Of a stretch of 64,000 nucleotides of DNA, positions 13,572-22,401 are shown one piece after another. The notes beneath the pieces were generated by a model. It saw only the letters and a list, made by a program, of their open reading frames with translations, searched no databases and had not been told where the DNA came from. Positions within the stretch are counted from its first letter, which is position 1, and each line of letters starts with the position of its first letter. Both the position numbers and the translations under genes were made by a program. Origin of the DNA: Bacteroidales bacterium (lineage in GTDB: Bacteria > Bacteroidota > Bacteroidia > Bacteroidales > Bacteroidaceae); contig SUXS01000017.1 in NCBI GenBank assembly GCA_015060865.1, positions 1-64,000 on the forward strand, written 5' to 3'.

Positions 13572-15557
13572 ATGAAAACAATACTTCTTATGAAAAACAG
13601 AATCCTCACGACCTGCCTGATGATATTGTGCATAGCAACATCCGGCAATTTGAAAGCCGAGAACGATAAGCCCTTCGTAATCCCCGAACTGCGCCAGTGG
13701 CAAGGTGCCGATGGCATGGTAGCCATCAGCCCCAGTACCAAGGTGATATATGTCAATGCCGAGCTCGCCGATGCAGCCGAGGCTATGGCCGAGGACTATG
13801 GCCTGCTCTTCGGCAAGGCAATGAAGACCAAGAACGCCAGCAAGGCTCCCAAGGGCACTATCATCATGGCCCTCACCGACGATAAGGAACTGGGCGACGA
13901 GGGTTACAGCATCAAGATTGACGACTGCATAGCCATCGAGGCCAACACCCCCACCGGAGCCTATTGGGCTACACGCACCCTGCTGCAGATCCTTGAGCAG
14001 TACGAGGGCACACACCTGCCCAAGGGTACCATCCGCGACTGGCCCGACTACGCCCTGCGCGGCCTGCTGCTCGACTGCGCCCGCAAGTTCATCCCCATGG
14101 ACTACCTCAAGACCTTCACCAAGGCCATGGCCTACTACAAGATGAACACCATCCAGGTACACCTCAACGACAACGGCTTCAAGCAATACTTCAATCACGA
14201 CTGGGACAAGACCTACGCTGCCTTCCGCCTCGAGAGCGAGTTCTTCCCCGAGCTCACCGCCAAGGACGGCAGCTACGGCAAGGACGAGTTCCGCCAGTTC
14301 CAGAAAGATGCCGCCAAGATGGGTGTGAACATCATCCCCGAGATTGACATCCCCGCCCACTCGCTCGCCTTCGCCCACTACCGCAAGGAGTTCGGCTCCG
14401 AGAAGTACGGCATGGACCACCTCGACCTCTTCAACGAAAACCTCTACCCCTTCCTCGACTCACTCTTCACCGAGTACCTCGAGGGTGAGGACCCCGTGTT
14501 TGTAGGCAAGCAGGTCAACATCGGTACCGACGAGTACTCCAATGCCGAGAAGGCCGTGGTAGAGAAGTTCCGCTACCTCACCGACCGCTACATCCGCTTC
14601 GTCGAGTCGTTCGGCAAGCAGGCGATGGTATGGGGTGCCCTCACCCACGCCAAGGGCGACACTCCCGTGAAGTCCGAGAACGTCATCATGAACTGCTGGT
14701 ACAACGGCTATGCCAACCCTGCCGACATGAAGGCCTTGGGTTACGAGCTCGTCAGCATCCCCGACGGAGCCGTCTACATCGTGCCCGCCGCAGGCTACTA
14801 CTACGACTACCTTAACCTTCCCTACCTATACAATTCATGGAGCCCCGCACAGATCGGCAACCAGAAGTTCGAGGACAAGGACCCCGTCATCCGTGGCGGC
14901 ATGTATGCCGTATGGAATGACGTGGTAGGCAACGGCATCTCTGTTGAGGACATCCACCACCGCAGCTACCCCGGCATGCAGGTCATCGCAGCCTCTACCT
15001 GGAGCCCCACCTACAAGACCGTCCCCTTCGAGGAGTTCAACCACAAGCGCACCCTGCTTGCCGAGGCTCCCGGTGTGAACGACCTGGGCACCTTCAAGGG
15101 CGAGCCTGGTAGCGTAGTGTACACCATCCCCGAGGTGAAGCCTGGCAAGCGCTATCCCCACGCCAAGGCAGGCTACGGCTACAGCGTATCGTTCAGCCTC
15201 GACGGCGCCAAGGAGCAGCCCGGCACCAAGCTCTTGAGTAACGGCATCACCGACTTCTACCTTGCCAGCCCCACCGACGGCCGCATGGCCTTCGTCCGCG
15301 ACGGCTACCTCAACACCTTCAACTACTTCGTTGAGGAGGGCAAGCAGGTCGACATCCGCATCGAGTGCACCAACACCGCCACACGCCTCTATGTAGACGG
15401 CAAGCTGAAGGACGAGCTCAAGCGTGCCAAGCGCTGGGCATCAGACAAGGTATCGTACGACTACGTACCCACCCTCTGCTTCCCCCTCGAGCAGGCAGGC
15501 AACTTCAAGAGCCGTATCACTAATCTTTGTGTAAGAAACTATTGCACGGCAGAATAA
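13572..15557 (+). CDS. GH20 family beta-N-acetylhexosaminidase
   Basis: A 661-residue exported glycoside hydrolase. The second ATG (13590) gives a cleaner signal peptide (MKNRILTTCLMILCIATSG). Residues about 35-145 form the GH20b alpha/beta domain, 150-500 the TIM barrel (DYALRGLLLDCARKFIPMD; MNTIQVHLNDN; VNIIPEIDIPAHS), and the last 120 residues a LamG/concanavalin-like sandwich (ATRLYVDGKLKDELK). The catalytic Asp-Glu pair of GH20 enzymes is in NIGTDEYSNAE near residue 320, where most members have H-x-G-G-D-E. Expected to remove terminal GlcNAc/GalNAc from glycans by substrate-assisted catalysis. Codons end mostly in C or G, as in strongly expressed genes here. Its 3' end overlaps the convergent permease gene by 19 bp. 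Confidence 0.88.
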   Translation: MKTILLMKNRILTTCLMILCIATSGNLKAENDKPFVIPELRQWQGADGMVAISPSTKVIYVNAELADAAEAMAEDYGLLFGKAMKTKNASKAPKGTIIMALTDDKELGDEGYSIKIDDCIAIEANTPTGAYWATRTLLQILEQYEGTHLPKGTIRDWPDYALRGLLLDCARKFIPMDYLKTFTKAMAYYKMNTIQVHLNDNGFKQYFNHDWDKTYAAFRLESEFFPELTAKDGSYGKDEFRQFQKDAAKMGVNIIPEIDIPAHSLAFAHYRKEFGSEKYGMDHLDLFNENLYPFLDSLFTEYLEGEDPVFVGKQVNIGTDEYSNAEKAVVEKFRYLTDRYIRFVESFGKQAMVWGALTHAKGDTPVKSENVIMNCWYNGYANPADMKALGYELVSIPDGAVYIVPAAGYYYDYLNLPYLYNSWSPAQIGNQKFEDKDPVIRGGMYAVWNDVVGNGISVEDIHHRSYPGMQVIAASTWSPTYKTVPFEEFNHKRTLLAEAPGVNDLGTFKGEPGSVVYTIPEVKPGKRYPHAKAGYGYSVSFSLDGAKEQPGTKLLSNGITDFYLASPTDGRMAFVRDGYLNTFNYFVEEGKQVDIRIECTNTATRLYVDGKLKDELKRAKRWASDKVSYDYVPTLCFPLEQAGNFKSRITNLCVRNYCTAE

Positions 15558-16750
15558 AGCTTAGGCGGAAACCGTCCATCCAGTTTCCTACGATACGTAT
15601 CTACAGCAAGGATAAAATAGACCACTACCTGTATCCACAGAACCAAGAGTTCTGTGGATACTACATTTAGTGGAGCATCCATACAGTTAAGCATCACGAA
15701 AGCCAATGTCCCAGAAGCAGCAGGAACTATATAATGAGCAATCTGCCAATACCATGGCATTAGTTCCAACGGATAGGACACCCCCGCCAAGAACAACAAC
15801 CCAATAGAAAAAAAGGCTATAAGCAGAATGGGAGCCTCGGGATCAGCATACCATCGTGACAAAAAAAGCCCTAAGAAAGAGGTTCCCAACAGGTAAGGGG
15901 TAAGCAGACAAAACAGCTCACCCCATGACGCCATATGGGGAATATCGAAGAATAGCGGAAGTATCCCAAACATAAACAACGAAAAAATACCATAAAGCAG
16001 GCAATATACAAGACTCTTCCCTACCACAATCTGAAATGCCATGCCACAAGAGGAGAGAGTATCCTTGGTATACAATACTACCGGCGGAGATTTCTTCTCT
16101 GTCCCCGCACGCATAGCTACAAGCATCATTAGGGTCTGAAATAGTATCAACATCAGCACGGAGGGGATAAGATAAATGCCATACCCCTCCAAAGGATTAT
16201 ACAGAGCATAACCGACAACCTCCACCGGTGCTTGAGTGGCTACAGCAGCCAAGCCTGACAAAGGCAGATTACCGATAAGTTGCTGGCGATACACCCCATC
16301 CATTGCCTCCATCACCTGAAGATTGGCCTTTGCCATTGCTTCATAATATAAAAAGGCCTCAGTAGACGCGTAGAACGGGAACACCGACTGTTGCCCTTCA
16401 AAAACAAGAGTCTCAAAATTTTCTGGCAAATACAATATTCCGAACACCTGAGCCGACAGCATCAAACGCTTAGCCTCAGCCATATCTGCCACGACATATT
16501 CAACCTGAACCTGTGGAGTAGCATCCATCCAACTCATATATTGACGGCTCATACTGGAATGCGAATGATCAACCACCACTATAGGCACATCATGCACTAC
16601 ATTGGGAGCATACATGTAGTTATAAAGAAACCCATAGGCAAAGATGCCGCCCAGCAGCACCAGCAATATTGAATAATCGGAGCTTATAGCCTTGAACTCC
16701 CGAACGGCAACATGCCACCACAATGAACGTTGCTTATCCAAAGGTATCAT
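15539..16750 (-). CDS. ABC-2 type exporter permease
   Basis: A 403-residue membrane protein of the YhhJ/ABC2_membrane_3 type. One N-terminal helix (SILLVLLGGIFAYGFLYNY), a large periplasmic domain (about residues 45-165), then five or six C-terminal helices (IPSVLMLILFQTLMMLVAM onwards). It overlaps its homologue at 16734-17909 by 17 bp and completes a TolC-HlyD-permease-permease operon. No ATP-binding protein gene is present in the operon. The substrate is unknown; homologues export drugs or hydrophobic molecules. Confidence 0.88.
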   Translation of the reverse strand: MIPLDKQRSLWWHVAVREFKAISSDYSILLVLLGGIFAYGFLYNYMYAPNVVHDVPIVVVDHSHSSMSRQYMSWMDATPQVQVEYVVADMAEAKRLMLSAQVFGILYLPENFETLVFEGQQSVFPFYASTEAFLYYEAMAKANLQVMEAMDGVYRQQLIGNLPLSGLAAVATQAPVEVVGYALYNPLEGYGIYLIPSVLMLILFQTLMMLVAMRAGTEKKSPPVVLYTKDTLSSCGMAFQIVVGKSLVYCLLYGIFSLFMFGILPLFFDIPHMASWGELFCLLTPYLLGTSFLGLFLSRWYADPEAPILLIAFFSIGLLFLAGVSYPLELMPWYWQIAHYIVPAASGTLAFVMLNCMDAPLNVVSTELLVLWIQVVVYFILAVDTYRRKLDGRFPPKLYSAVQ

Positions 16751-17909
16751 AACGATGAGAAAGAATTAGGCGCTTTAATCGAGGGAGCAGCAACAAAGCG
16801 ATCAAAGGATATAAAAGCAACAGCGCCAATATTGACCAACAGGAAGCCAAATATCCATTATAATATACAATCATCTGAACCAGCCGCGTAAAGTGGCGAA
16901 TGGGGAATAATGCAGCGACATAACGTACGATAGGAGACATTGCAGACAAAGGAAATGTAAGTCCTGACAAGGTTGCCCCCAACGACCCGACCATAGAGAC
17001 AACACTGATGACAAGCGAAAACGCCGGAAACAAAGAGAAAAGAACAACAGCTACACTCTGAGTAGCAATGACAAACAAGATAGAAGATAGTTGCAAAACG
17101 AACCAACTCCCCGAAAAAGGTATACGCACTATCTCGAAAAATATATAGTTGGCCAACAGGGCTTCTGCTGAAAAAAACAGGAAATAGGGCAGCAACTTTC
17201 CTAATACTGCTGCCAAGATATTGCCATTTGCAGCCTGCAACCAATTCTCACCTGTGGCATACTTCGTCTCATGCCCCATGGCATAAAGTGTAACCAGCAA
17301 CACCAATACCTGAAACATTATAAAGAAGATGGGCTGACTAAGATATGCAGCATAATTGAGCGACGGATTGTACAATGTATGGCTATCGGTTTCCATTGGA
17401 AGCAAAAAAGTTTCCATCGTATTCTCATCACCTCCCAACGCCACTGCATCAAGTACAATCGGTGCCATACGTACTGGCAACAGCCCCATTTCGAAAGCAG
17501 ACATCACTTCACCACCAACCGCCAATAGAGCATAATGATAATAGTAGCAAAGCGTAGCCCCTGCCCCACGCAGCATATCTGCCTCAAAATCGGGAGGGAT
17601 GGACAGATACCCATAGATTTCCTTACGCTCCAATGCCCTACGGGCAGCCATATCATCGGCATACCATGTCACGACATCAAAGGTAGGCACAGCTGCTATA
17701 TTACGTGCCACACTGCGTGAGGTAGCCGTGTTATCGGCATCAACAATGGCTATAGGTATCCGTTCCATCTGTCCCGTTCCAAATATAGTAGACATAAAAA
17801 ATATCAAGAACAAAGGCAACAGCACTACCGATAAAAAATAGATACGACGCGAACACATACGGCACCACTCACGCCGAAAGACTTGCAAGAAAGAACCTAC
17901 AACAGCCAT
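16734..17909 (-). CDS. ABC-2 type exporter permease
   Basis: A 391-residue paralogue of the next gene with the same topology: helix near residues 22-42 (IYFLSVVLLPLFLIFFMSTIF), periplasmic domain with VDADNTATSRSVARNI, and a C-terminal six-helix bundle with SAMSPIVRYVAALFPIRHF, a conserved feature of the family. It probably forms a heterodimer with the 15539-16750 product. It starts 3 bp after the HlyD-like gene stop, so expression is coupled. Confidence 0.88.
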   Translation of the reverse strand: MAVVGSFLQVFRREWCRMCSRRIYFLSVVLLPLFLIFFMSTIFGTGQMERIPIAIVDADNTATSRSVARNIAAVPTFDVVTWYADDMAARRALERKEIYGYLSIPPDFEADMLRGAGATLCYYYHYALLAVGGEVMSAFEMGLLPVRMAPIVLDAVALGGDENTMETFLLPMETDSHTLYNPSLNYAAYLSQPIFFIMFQVLVLLVTLYAMGHETKYATGENWLQAANGNILAAVLGKLLPYFLFFSAEALLANYIFFEIVRIPFSGSWFVLQLSSILFVIATQSVAVVLFSLFPAFSLVISVVSMVGSLGATLSGLTFPLSAMSPIVRYVAALFPIRHFTRLVQMIVYYNGYLASCWSILALLLLYPLIALLLLPRLKRLILSHRYDTFG

Positions 17910-17912
17910 CTG

Positions 17913-18908
17913 TCACCTATCCGTTACTGTCATCTCAAGCAAAACAGCCATTCCGGGCCGTAACCCTTCAACCTCTTGCGTAGGTCGCATCTTCACTGTA
18001 AAAGTACGCATATCATAGCTACCAACTTGCTTCGTCGACTTCCAGGTGGCGAAACTACCAAGCGGACTGATATAATAGACTTCAAACGGCACATCATCAC
18101 GCGCCAAAGCAGGAATGTTGGCTACAAAACGACGCCCCACACGGAAATGAGGCAGCAAATCTTCACGAATATTAAATACCGCATGACAATCTTTCAACAC
18201 CACCAAATTCATCACTGGAGCGCCAGGCGCCACCAGTTCGCCACGTTTGGGGAAGATATCGGCAATCTGTCCATCGGCCGGAGCGGTGAGCTTGGCATCC
18301 ACGAGCAAGGCTGCGACCTCTTCGACAGAGCTTTGAGCAACTTCCACCATTTTCTGTGCAGACACCTTATCTTCCTCCTGTGCTCCGTCACGCATCAAGC
18401 GATACTGCTCATAAGCTCCACGTTCAGCTGCACGAGCCGTCTCGAGAGCCGCCAGTGCTTCATCGAACCGTTGCTGAGGCACCACACTATCGTGAAAAAG
18501 GACATGCACACGGGTATAAGTTTTCTCGGCCAGTTCGGTTTGGCTCTTTGCCGCTTGCCAGAGTTGATAGGACGAAGCTATAATCTGTGTCCGAGTACCC
18601 GAATCTATCTTACGATTCTGTTCCTCCGCCACTTGACGCATAGCATCAGCCTGCCGGTAACGGGCTTGCACAAGTGGGCTATTGATTACTACCAACGTAT
18701 CCCCTCTCTTCACATCATCTCCTTCGGACACTAAAAACGAATCAATACGCCCCAACAGTTTTCCACTGACACGAATCTCCGTAGCTTCGACTTCACCTTG
18801 AAGCAGCATCGGGTCACGATGATTCAGTACCATTCCGATTACAACAATCAACAATACCAAGACAAGTACACTTGCAAAAGCCACAGATAATCCTTTATGG
18901 TTATTCAT
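17913..18908 (-). CDS. HlyD-family periplasmic adaptor (membrane fusion protein)
   Basis: A 331-residue protein from the ATG at 18908 (MNNHKGLSVAFASVLVLVLLI); this start overlaps the TolC stop by 8 bp and puts the membrane anchor at residues 8-28. The lipoyl/barrel-sandwich part is split: LLQGEVEATEIRVSGKLLGR near residue 38 and LTAPADGQIADIFPKRGELV near 210. Between them lies a long alpha hairpin coiled coil (about 85-195). The C-terminal beta-barrel ends with LRPGMAVLLEM. It should link the inner-membrane permeases to the TolC-like channel. Confidence 0.9.
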   Translation of the reverse strand: MNNHKGLSVAFASVLVLVLLIVVIGMVLNHRDPMLLQGEVEATEIRVSGKLLGRIDSFLVSEGDDVKRGDTLVVINSPLVQARYRQADAMRQVAEEQNRKIDSGTRTQIIASSYQLWQAAKSQTELAEKTYTRVHVLFHDSVVPQQRFDEALAALETARAAERGAYEQYRLMRDGAQEEDKVSAQKMVEVAQSSVEEVAALLVDAKLTAPADGQIADIFPKRGELVAPGAPVMNLVVLKDCHAVFNIREDLLPHFRVGRRFVANIPALARDDVPFEVYYISPLGSFATWKSTKQVGSYDMRTFTVKMRPTQEVEGLRPGMAVLLEMTVTDR

Positions 18909-20328
18909 ACATTCTACTATAATCGGTAAACACTTCTGGGGTACCACATAAAGCCAGCAGATTTATCAGAGCCACATCATACGCATAACAGGAGGCCAGA
19001 TGAGCCAATCGAGCATCGGCAAGCATGGTTTCTGCATCTATTAACTCGGCGGTTGTTGCCAATCCCTCCTTAAAAGCACGTGTACGTACACGAAGGAGTT
19101 CTTCGTTAACAGTCGTTACAGACCGCCATACATCAGCATCTGCACGTGCTTTTTCAAGAGTGACATACAACTCCGACAGTGTTACAGCCAGTTCTTCTTC
19201 TACCTTCTCACGCTCCAACACAAGCGATTGGCGGATTTGACGTGACTGCACTATTCGCTTTTCCCTTGCCAGTCCATCAAACAGATTCCATGTAAAGCCT
19301 ACCCCTACCATCGAACGAGGAAATAAATTGGACGGTATACCATGACTCCATATCGTATGCTTAGCAAACAGCGCGACATTTGGCAGATAATCACTCTGCG
19401 ACATGCGCAGTTGATCACCCGCAACAGCCTCCTGCAAGGCAAGCACCTTGATGGCAGGATTTCCCTTAGGTAACATTGCTGCAAACTCGGCATAAGGAGG
19501 CAATACTTCATTAACAAACAATGGCGAAACGGGGGTTATTCGGACAGTATCGTCAGAGATCCCCAATAATGTACGCAATGTCAACTGCCCTACCTGTTCG
19601 TCCATACGTGCAGCCTCCAACGCACTTCGTGCTTCTTCGTAAGCCACTTGCGCAACTAAACGAGCAGCCTTGTCTATCATTCCAACCTTTTCAAGGCGAA
19701 TGGCGTCGAAGTAATGCCGTTTCATCCCCTCCAATGCAAGACGCCTAACCTCTATCGTCTGTTGAATCAAGAAGAGACCATAATAACTTTCAACCAAGGC
19801 CACCAGTTCGGTCGCCTTTACTGCCGAACGATTTTCCTCAGCAACAGAAATCAGCCGACCGCCTATCCGCCTAGCCAGCAAACGGTCTCCTCCACTAAAA
19901 GCGACCCATTCTGCAGTCACATCCAATGTTGACAAATCGCGAGGCAGCAAGGGGAAAGAGAGTGTATAACTGCCAACCTTATCCAACATCCCACTTATCA
20001 ACACATCAGAGGGGAACAACTCGTGCACATGCTCCTTTATAGGATTGGTATACCGCGAAAGTTTCTGTTTCACCTCAACATCTTCGCTCAAGTGCACATA
20101 CATACCGGAAGTCTGAACCTGAGGATACCAAGAAGCATCAACTATACTACGCTCATCATGTGCAATCCTTACCTCCTGTTCTGCAATCTTTAACCCACGA
20201 CTAGCAGTAGACATCTGACGTAGAGCCTCATCAAAGCGAAGTTGACAAGAGGATTGCCCTGACAGCTTCCACGGGAAAACCAATCCCAGCAATACCCAAC
20301 AAATTATACGACCTGTGTACATAAGCAA
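18901..20328 (-). CDS. TolC-like outer-membrane efflux protein
   Basis: A 475-residue protein with a signal peptide (MLMYTGRIICWVLLGLVFP) and two homologous helical repeats of the outer-membrane efflux family (LRFDEALRQMSTASRGLKIAEQ at the start; a second repeat from about residue 265). The late motif RTRAFKEGLATTAELIDAETML is the characteristic TolC linker. First gene of the exporter operon. No clear promoter box was found in the 50 bp upstream, and no regulator gene adjoins it. Confidence 0.88.
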   Translation of the reverse strand: MLMYTGRIICWVLLGLVFPWKLSGQSSCQLRFDEALRQMSTASRGLKIAEQEVRIAHDERSIVDASWYPQVQTSGMYVHLSEDVEVKQKLSRYTNPIKEHVHELFPSDVLISGMLDKVGSYTLSFPLLPRDLSTLDVTAEWVAFSGGDRLLARRIGGRLISVAEENRSAVKATELVALVESYYGLFLIQQTIEVRRLALEGMKRHYFDAIRLEKVGMIDKAARLVAQVAYEEARSALEAARMDEQVGQLTLRTLLGISDDTVRITPVSPLFVNEVLPPYAEFAAMLPKGNPAIKVLALQEAVAGDQLRMSQSDYLPNVALFAKHTIWSHGIPSNLFPRSMVGVGFTWNLFDGLAREKRIVQSRQIRQSLVLEREKVEEELAVTLSELYVTLEKARADADVWRSVTTVNEELLRVRTRAFKEGLATTAELIDAETMLADARLAHLASCYAYDVALINLLALCGTPEVFTDYSRMYE

Positions 20329-20719: not shown

Positions 20720-22087
20720 TTAATCGTGTACTATTTTATCCAATTGCTGCAAGTTGGCCGCGATCGTATCATCACTGATGCTATTGTTGATAAGGTTTCC
20801 TGCTAAATACTGGTCGTAGGCAGCCATATCAATGAGTCCATGTCCAGAGAGGCAGAAGAGTATGGTTTTCTCCTCACCCGTTTCAATACATCTCTTAGCC
20901 TCGCGTATGGTAGCTGCAATAGCATGACACGACTCTGGTGCAGGAATGATACCCTCAGCTGCTGCAAACAGCGTTCCTGCCTCAAACGATTCTATCTGCT
21001 CGACATCTACCGCCTCCATCAACTTATCCTTTAGCAACTGTGATACGACAAGACCAGCTCCGTGGTAACGAAGTCCACCTGCGTGAATATTCGCCGGACG
21101 GAAGTTATGTCCAAGCGTAAACATAGGTATCAGCGGTGTGTAACCCGATTCGTCACCAAAATCGTAATGGAACTCACCACGTGTCAGCTTCGGGCACGAT
21201 GCTGGCTCTGCAGCTACAAAACGAGTTGTTTTACCTTCCTTTATATTGTGACGCATGAAAGGGAATGCTATTCCACCAAAGTTGGAGCCTCCTCCAAAGC
21301 AAGCTATTATCACATCAGGGTATTCACCTGCCATCTCCATCTGTTTTTCGGCCTCAAGTCCGATAACTGTCTGATGCAATGTAACGTGCCCCATTACCGA
21401 CCCTAATGTATACTTACAGTTGGGTGTCATCCTTGCCAGCTCAACCGCTTCTGAGATTGCCGTTCCCAGCGAGCCTTGATGATTAGGGTATTTTGTAAGG
21501 ATATCCTTTCCTGCTCGTGTGGACATAGAGGGTGAAGGTGTCACCTGCGCGCCAAAAGTCTGCATGATGCTGCGACGATAGGGCTTTTGTTCGTATGACA
21601 CTTTTACCTGATATACAGCAGCCTCAAGTCCAAACACCTTGGCTGCATACGAAAGAGCTGCCCCCCATTGCCCCGCTCCAGTCTCCGTTGTAATATTGGT
21701 TACTCCCTCCTGTTTACAATAGTATGCTTGAGCGAGTGCAGAATTGAGCTTGTGCGAACCGATGGGACTCACACTCTCATTCTTGAAATAGATATGGGCA
21801 GGTGTGCCAAGTGCCTTCTCCAAGCCATAAGCACGCACCAAGGGAGTACTCCTATAATAGGTATACATCTCACGTACTCGTTCAGGAATATCAATCCAAG
21901 AATCTGTCATATTGAGTTCTTGGTGCGAAGCCTCACGTGAGAATAATTCATAAAGGTCCTCAGGTGTTACAGGATTACCCGTTTGGGGATGGAGCATCGG
22001 CATAGGTTTATTGGGCATATCTGCCTGAATATTGTACCATTGGGTTGGGATTTCCCGTTCCGATAAAATGAATCTTTTCTGTCTCAT
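20720..22087 (-). CDS. trpB: tryptophan synthase beta-like protein (TrpB2 type)
   Basis: A 455-residue PLP enzyme of the TrpB2 subgroup, longer than ordinary TrpB (about 395). The N-terminal extension includes MPNKPMPMLHPQTGNPV. Lys113 in SPIGSHKLNSALAQ should form the Schiff base with PLP; CFGGGSNFGG near residue 245 is the phosphate loop. It makes L-tryptophan from indole and L-serine and is encoded without trpA, as is usual for TrpB2, so it may salvage free indole. Control is visible directly: a leader peptide with three Trp codons, an antiterminator and a terminator precede the gene (22104-22306). Confidence 0.92.
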   Translation of the reverse strand: MRQKRFILSEREIPTQWYNIQADMPNKPMPMLHPQTGNPVTPEDLYELFSREASHQELNMTDSWIDIPERVREMYTYYRSTPLVRAYGLEKALGTPAHIYFKNESVSPIGSHKLNSALAQAYYCKQEGVTNITTETGAGQWGAALSYAAKVFGLEAAVYQVKVSYEQKPYRRSIMQTFGAQVTPSPSMSTRAGKDILTKYPNHQGSLGTAISEAVELARMTPNCKYTLGSVMGHVTLHQTVIGLEAEKQMEMAGEYPDVIIACFGGGSNFGGIAFPFMRHNIKEGKTTRFVAAEPASCPKLTRGEFHYDFGDESGYTPLIPMFTLGHNFRPANIHAGGLRYHGAGLVVSQLLKDKLMEAVDVEQIESFEAGTLFAAAEGIIPAPESCHAIAATIREAKRCIETGEEKTILFCLSGHGLIDMAAYDQYLAGNLINNSISDDTIAANLQQLDKIVHD

Positions 22088-22103
22088 AACGGTATTCGGT
22101 AAT

Positions 22104-22141
22104 TAAAAAAATCCGATGCTATCTTTTTCAGAGCACCGGAT
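22104..22141 (-). terminator. attenuator terminator in the trpB leader
   Basis: On the minus strand ATCCGGTGCT (22141-22132) pairs with AGCATCGGAT (22120-22111) around an 11-nt loop, followed by seven T (22110-22104). It ends only 17 bp before the trpB ATG, so it must be bypassed for expression. Its 5' arm (CCGGTGCTC, 22139-22131) can instead pair with GAGCGCGG (22196-22189) just after the leader peptide. Confidence 0.8.
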
Positions 22142-22194
22142 TCATGTTACATTACTATTTTTCCTAATTTGTATATGCACATCAGTAACCGCGC

Positions 22195-22254
22195 TCATTC
22201 ATCCATGCTGAGCCACCACCAAAATCCACAAGAGGTCACCAATGTCATTGTCAT
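22195..22254 (-). CDS. Trp-rich leader peptide of trpB (attenuation)
   Basis: A 19-codon frame, MTMTLVTSCGFWWWLSMDE, ends at TGA (22197-22195). AAGG lies 7 nt before the ATG. Three consecutive TGG codons (22221-22213) make it a tryptophan sensor: ribosome stalling there leaves GAGCGCGG (which begins inside the stop codon) free to pair with the terminator's 5' arm, while full translation covers it and lets the terminator form. GCTC in the Trp-Leu codons can pair with GAGC as the alternative 1:2 stem. It is a non-functional product in itself; its translation is the switch. Confidence 0.85.
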   Translation of the reverse strand: MTMTLVTSCGFWWWLSMDE

Positions 22255-22275
22255 ATCAAACCTTAATATTTGCAG

Positions 22276-22306
22276 CAAAGTTATCGTATTTTTATCTATT
22301 TACAAA
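22276..22306 (-). promoter_or_regulatory. promoter of the trpB leader transcript
   Basis: Minus strand: TTTG (22306-22303), 19 bp, TAACTTTG (22283-22276). Exact consensus. The transcript would start near 22270, about 15 nt before the leader peptide ATG. Confidence 0.75.
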
Positions 22307-22345
22307 CATATTGTCATAAAAGTTTACAATTCCACCAAAATAAGT

Positions 22346-22377
22346 AAAAAAAAGATGGAGGTAAGAATACCTCCATC
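22346..22377 (-). terminator. terminator of the SusCD/FAS1 operon
   Basis: GATGGAGGTA (22354-22363) pairs with TACCTCCATC (22368-22377); on the minus strand the stem is followed by eight T (22353-22346). It is 25 bp after the last susD stop. Confidence 0.85.
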
Positions 22378-22401
22378 CTTTTTATTCCACATCGTATAGA
22401 A

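Follow-up and report, generated by a model that had tools for sequence, protein, structure and literature searches.

Introduction

How does a bacterium control a tryptophan synthase gene that stands alone, and what would such a gene be for? The question arises in a Bacteroidales bacterium (assembly GCA_015060865.1, contig SUXS01000017.1), in which a trpB2 gene on the minus strand lies directly behind what resembles a complete Trp attenuator; "the window" hereafter means the whole stretch of 64,000 nucleotides that was analysed. Genome surveys score a missing pathway in a gut species as Trp auxotrophy, and in the pathway table of one of them (PMC9026213) indole precursors substitute only where TrpA is kept together with TrpB. 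Finding a Trp attenuator in front of a lone trpB2 suggests that the cell treats this gene as its own source of Trp. The reading that we favour, with a probability of roughly 0.84, is a ribosome-mediated transcription attenuator, which would induce trpB2 upon Trp starvation for the synthesis of Trp from indole.

Results

The trpB2 gene and its neighbours

The trpB2 gene (20720..22087, minus strand) encodes a TrpB-like PLP enzyme of 455 aa, which is assigned to TrpB2 by two NCBIfam models, scoring 689.4 bits against NF009057 (cut-off 366) and 584.1 bits against TIGR01415 (cut-off 518.85). Its closest solved chains are 6hul, 4qys and 6hte, with alignments that span nearly the whole protein, and the stretches KNESVSPIGSHK and TETGAGQWG align with their counterparts in these chains. 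Two of them, 4qys and 6hte (beta chain 2), presumably come from an archaeon, and one of the two, as we understand it, uses O-phosphoserine. In one genome of the genus (locus L084), trpB2 contains an in-frame stop, which is perhaps an assembly error.

The SusD-like gene upstream has a terminator-like hairpin of its own, found by the terminator scan at 22348..22383 (minus strand), and trpB2 thus probably begins its own transcription unit. Low-scoring L20_leader matches fall on this hairpin and were set aside. Beyond the 3' end of trpB2, in the region 15539-20328, genes for an outer membrane efflux protein of TolC type and for an HlyD-like adaptor are joined by two more ORFs on the minus strand; together they probably form an efflux operon that has nothing to do with Trp. 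At two other loci, L071 and L073, another gene lies closely 3' of trpB2, the start of which we take to resemble cysteine synthase.

Parts of a Trp attenuator in the window

The preliminary description had proposed a full set of attenuator parts, and reading the sequence confirmed each of them on the minus strand, to which all of the following coordinates refer. A promoter-like site, TTTG-N19-TAACTTTG, occupies 22276..22306, with TTTG at 22306-22303 and TAACTTTG at 22283-22276; we take the form TTTG-N19-TAnnTTTG to be the Bacteroidota promoter consensus. A sigma-70 promoter scan yielded nothing beyond chance in the region, using a pattern that does not cover this promoter type. Downstream follow an SD-like AAGG (22264-22261), which is not obvious in several relatives, and an ORF with the predicted leader peptide MTMTLVTSCGFWWWLSMDE of 19 residues plus stop (22195..22254; ATG at 22254, TGA at 22197-22195). 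Three consecutive Trp codons, TGGTGGTGG (22213..22221), would serve as the sensor. Segment 1, GTGGCTC (22210..22216), lies over the Trp-Leu codons and is a possible, weakly supported partner of segment 2. Segment 2, GAGCGCGG (22189..22196), starts within the leader stop codon and pairs with segment 3, CCGGTGCTC (22131..22139), which belongs to the 5' arm and loop of an intrinsic terminator, GAATCCGGTG / CATCGGATTT plus T-run (22105..22143). Segment 3 thus has two mutually exclusive partners. Between the end of the terminator hairpin and the start of trpB2 lie 17 nt; the hairpin was not listed by the terminator scan, in which the loop limit was 8.

Conservation of the leader within the genus

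Thirteen loci of the genus were aligned, including L071 and L073, whose form is shared by four genus genomes and which were therefore counted as genus. Every locus keeps the three Trp codons, and the distance from the first of them to the stop codon is always 24 nt, with five varying residues in between; the residues preceding the Trp codons differ in the window. A TTTG-N19/20-TAnnTTTG site lies upstream of the leader at all 13 loci (12 with N19, one with N20), and the distance from leader stop to trpB2 is 99-166 nt in the 12 genus loci scored.

Allowing one bulged base, 98.1% of the cells of the segment 2:segment 3 pairing are paired across the 13 sequences, compared with 26.0-56.9% for a slid partner. 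These pairs hardly vary, so there is no covariation within the genus and every shuffle equals the observed value. In a poor test, the antiterminator energy was set against that of 200 shuffled versions of the segment, with a weak outcome that in part speaks against this reading: no more than 10 shuffles were as good in four of 12 genus loci, and 85 were in the window. In the terminator, 97.7% of cells are paired and three pairs have changed on both sides, with A-U to G-C among the changes; since all six two-sided cells stand in L071 and L073, a single lineage, they represent one evolutionary step or few. The T-rich tail is present at 12 of the 13 loci, the exception being L002 without a proper T-run. 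Loss of the Trp codons and stems in close relatives had been named beforehand as evidence against an attenuator; what the alignment gives is conservation of Trp codons, spacing, antiterminator and terminator throughout. The proposed 1:2 stem fared less clearly: 97.4% of its cells can pair, but all changes are one-sided, and the GCTC:GAGC core appears in the full-leader fold at only five of the 13 loci, the window not among them.

A covariance model of the element matched 15 of the 19 genomes of the genus, each time directly before trpB2. The four genus genomes without the element (G030, G204, G190 and G231) comprise two without a trpB2 match and two with weaker matches only. At the other 12 loci, the 1.5 kb on either side contain no match to the window's neighbours TolC and SusD; leader and trpB2 therefore stay linked while their neighbourhood changes.

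Folding of the leader

When the Trp codons are covered and the RNA ends at segment 3, folding predicts the antiterminator core at all 13 loci. Once the complete terminator has been made, the terminator is the predicted fold at all 13 and outcompetes the antiterminator at equilibrium. The switch must therefore be kinetic, as it is in the trp attenuator of E. coli. Segment 2 begins at every locus in the stop codon, 24 nt past the first Trp codon, so that a ribosome at the stop codon would cover it and one at the Trp codons would leave it free.

Controls for chance occurrence

The wider comparison comprised 111 rows, namely 80 loci of named records, 30 further loci including the window's own and the unrelated L111. 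Two rows had too little upstream sequence to be counted. Among the remaining 109, which include L111 and seven duplicate contigs, a short ORF (6-60 codons) with three consecutive Trp codons lies in the 320 nt upstream of trpB2 in 19; three of these are duplicates, leaving 16 distinct cases. The same search found no such ORF on the reverse strand (0/109) or far downstream (0/111). In 1000 shuffles of the window's own 320 nt, ORFs with three Trp codons arose once and with two 52 times. Across the window's own genome there are 73 TGGTGGTGG sites versus 79 for the reversed control pattern, and 22 of the 73 yield a short in-frame ORF. For only three of these 22 (trpB2, L271 and L313) is there a terminator-like hairpin no more than 110 nt away, and among the three, judged by eye, only trpB2 has a stop region able to pair with the hairpin.

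Tryptophan and indole genes of the genus

No genome of the genus has trpA (PF00290) over cut-off (0/19, with two fragment-like matches near E 1e-3) or an IGPS match (PF00218; 0/19), and both searches were positive in all 14 control genomes. In the window's own genome no canonical trpB exceeds the cut-off of 392.45 bits, the only match being TrpB2 itself at 133.1 bits. The genus genomes are 62-93% complete (the window's own 92%), and our reading of pathway loss covers trpA, IGPS and trpB. That the only TrpB found stands behind a Trp attenuator fits best with indole salvage under the control of Trp starvation, a role that the preliminary description had suggested and that these absences strengthen.

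An internal source of indole is conceivable. The window's own genome has one gene of the tryptophanase subfamily (L319, G000:C32:61407-62750, minus strand), which scores 569.9 bits against NF009709 (cut-off 285) but does not reach the cut-off of either of two tryptophanase equivalog models or that of tyrosine phenol-lyase. Its product could make indole inside the cell. TIGR02617 has matches in 11 of the 19 genus genomes, none of them over its cut-off.

Leaders and loss of trpA in the family

Leaders with tandem Trp codons also precede trpB2 in seven other genera of the family, with different stop-region and terminator sequences. Many of them show a complementary stop region, one such pair being TCGTGAG and CTCACGA; a scripted terminator search gave none for G046, G096 and the genus locus L002. 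Upstream of trpB2 at L057, L081 and L331 (the last in G278) lies a leader of another type, in which Trp codons are distributed as far as its end; FWWQSEWCTVRWRGVA and FWWWQSQTVRWRGVA are examples. At L057 and L081 the sequence CCACGC in the terminator loop can be matched to its complement GCGTGG inside the leader. On the TrpB2 tree of 101 rows (seven duplicates, L030, L084 and L111 left out), the leader requires at least four gains or losses.

Among 134 family genomes, a set drawn non-randomly from the trpB2 matches listed and favouring genes like the window's, a leader with tandem Trp codons stands at trpB2 in 32 of 54 without trpA and in three of 80 with trpA (Fisher 3e-13). Without the window's genus the counts are 17/39 versus 3/80 (2e-7), and without genus g21 as well 7/27 versus 3/80 (0.002). 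When the test is stratified by genus, significance is lost (observed 5, expected 3.4, chi-square 0.87); the signal thus comes mainly from differences between genera, and the p-values make it look stronger than it is. The trpA-negative calls rest on assemblies of varying completeness; two of the leaders counted (G123 and G085) are doubtful, with 19-20 residues after the Trp codons, and an ORF of L012 with two Trp codons, located over 280 nt upstream, was left out of the count. In the genomes of 50 named records, which overlap with the 134 in species, the leader occurs in eight of 20 without trpA and in one of 30 with it.

The covariance model R1 reaches leaders before trpB-like genes in other genera, at best with 48.3 bits (G026). 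Of 15 matches outside the genus that were read, six have a leader with three Trp codons before a trpB-like gene and nine do not, and the shared part seems to consist mainly of the Trp codons. We therefore do not claim that the trpB2 leader descends from the leader of a trp operon.

Discussion

Proposed control of trpB2

The attenuator is conserved and probably working, and its mechanism is well supported, as far as sequence goes, by anatomy and conservation. Transcription would start a few bases past 22276, and a ribosome would initiate the leader peptide. With ample charged tRNA-Trp, this ribosome would pass the three Trp codons, reach the stop codon and cover segment 2; segment 3 would then be free to form the terminator, and transcription would end before trpB2. 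Under a shortage of charged tRNA-Trp, the ribosome would instead stall on the Trp codons, 24 nt before the stop, and leave segment 2 exposed. Segment 2 could then pair with segment 3 as soon as the latter is made, the terminator would come too late and trpB2 would be transcribed. The TrpB2 protein may then make Trp from serine and indole, the indole being supplied by other microbes or by the cell's own breakdown of Trp. This role in indole salvage is our best inference from the genomes.

Alternative explanations

A chance short ORF with Trp codons in front of an ordinary terminator is next to negligible as an explanation. ORFs with two Trp codons are not rare in the shuffles, and two other short ORFs with three Trp codons in the same genome precede a terminator-like hairpin; nonetheless, triple Trp codons came up in a single shuffle and in neither control region, and they are kept at all 13 loci. 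The leader might otherwise act on translation, with the hairpin or the translation of the leader governing ribosome access to trpB2. The 17 nt between hairpin and trpB2 start in the window and the missing T-run of L002 would suit such a mechanism, which we nevertheless consider very improbable given that the distance from leader stop to trpB2 ranges over 99-166 nt in 12 genus loci and that the T-run is kept in 12 of 13.

Two further alternatives accept the attenuator and concern the enzyme. TrpB2 could work on another substrate or catalyse another reaction, with O-phosphoserine or in another beta-replacement, so that the gene would be Trp-responsive and its function not plain indole salvage. 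The beta chain 2 structures 4qys and 6hte among its closest solved chains speak for this possibility; the control by Trp codons and the lack of any other TrpB over cut-off point to Trp as the product, and KNESVSPIGSHK and TETGAGQWG align with the solved chains, which makes another substrate or reaction unlikely. Alternatively, de novo Trp genes might lie in unassembled parts of the genomes and TrpB2 might belong to a normal pathway. Incomplete assemblies leave some room for this, but the consistent absence of trpA and IGPS over cut-off from 19 genomes, against 14 positive controls in both searches, renders it even slightly less probable than an action on translation. Attenuation of trpB2 in the service of indole salvage consequently remains the reading that we prefer.

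Wider meaning

A broader idea, to which we would give a little less than even odds, is that the Trp attenuator of Bacteroidales follows whichever TrpB makes Trp, standing before the whole operon or, after pathway loss, before an orphan trpB1 or trpB2. It would have been recruited or rebuilt several times with unrelated antiterminators, and many listed Trp auxotrophs might be regulated indole salvagers. If the lone trpB2 is indeed the cell's source of Trp, the indole of neighbouring microbes would be a nutrient, indole cross-feeding would become directly testable, and the attenuator would have survived at, or been recruited again to, the final step of a pathway otherwise lost.

Comparison with known systems

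In the trp operon attenuator of E. coli, tandem Trp codons act in the leader peptide and 2:3 pairing blocks the 3:4 terminator. The leader in the window follows the same logic, but controls one stand-alone gene and not a biosynthetic operon. The corresponding Rfam family, Trp_leader (RF00513, cut-off 41 bits), has no match in the window, and two trpB2 leaders from a different genus stay below this cut-off at 25.9 and 25.8 bits. No Rfam family, the T-box riboswitch included, exceeds its gathering score in the window, and no T-box match is listed at 22050-22400.

Indole salvage by related enzymes has precedents. The trpRBA operon of Chlamydia trachomatis makes Trp from indole and is regulated by Trp supply (PMC9378776, PMC7755916); unlike the leader studied here, it is described there with TrpR and the trans-acting repressor YtgR, and with TrpA beside TrpB. 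For Thermococcus kodakarensis, TrpB2 is linked to the conversion of indole to Trp by Hiyama 2014, as cited in PMC11085991. This resembles the indole salvage proposed here, but in an archaeon and beside a TrpB1 (PMC11085991). Among the literature matches listed, whose titles and abstract openings were considered, none describes a Trp attenuator before trpB2 in Bacteroidota.

The preliminary description had regarded leaders of this kind as best known from Proteobacteria and Actinobacteria, which needs correction: Trp leader peptides are already known in Bacteroidota as Bacteroid-trp, the Bacteroidete tryptophan peptide leader RNA (RF01692; Weinberg et al. 2010, PMC2864571). Table 1 of PMC2864571 lists it under Bacteroidetes with a lower-case y for RNA and for cis-reg. 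Among 301 family genomes, 52 carry RF01692 over its cut-off of 49 bits. At E <=0.001 it has 71 places: 55 precede a trpA of the same strand by no more than 12 kb, four lie elsewhere and 12 have no trpA among the matches listed.

Eleven stretches around RF01692 places were read. In five genomes (G009, G137, G058, G207 and G186) a trpB-like gene is followed by no evident trp gene within the stretch read; the one from G186, the only one of the five scanned, is a canonical trpB. By profile search, trpA is found elsewhere in G009 and in none of the other four. In L321, L325 and L328 (G009, G137 and G058), the trpB-like gene with a leader of three Trp codons stands apart from trp genes as far as read, and the start of the next gene (LLIYTGGTIGM) resembles that of an asparaginase. 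Locus L330 (G202) has two near-identical leader peptides with three Trp codons, NTYWWWRNSRPEKS, about 5 kb apart and both upstream of trpA.

Some RF01692 elements do stand before trpB2. In G267 the family scores 49.2 bits, over its cut-off, before a TrpB2 gene, in G078 it reaches 46 bits directly before trpB2, and five of 17 trpB2 leaders from outside the genus have scores between 33 and 46 bits. There is no RF01692 match up to E 10 at 22050-22400 in the window, and the family is found over cut-off in 0 of the 19 genus genomes; a sub-threshold match of 28.8 bits elsewhere in the window's own genome was taken as chance, with no trp gene in its surroundings.

RF01692 and the leader in the window share their occurrence in Bacteroidota, a leader peptide with two or three consecutive Trp codons, a stop region that can pair with the terminator hairpin and a position before trp genes. 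They differ in the sequences of stop region and terminator and in the geometry of the pairing: segment 2 of the window pairs with the 5' arm and loop of the terminator (CCGRTGCTC), whereas the RF01692 loci, by inspection, use the loop and 3' arm. Trp attenuation in Bacteroidota is thus already known and trpB2 is already a target at the edge of the RF01692 family, and the leader in the window, which lacks an RF01692 match, represents a divergent version, in this genus, of a known kind of Bacteroidota leader.
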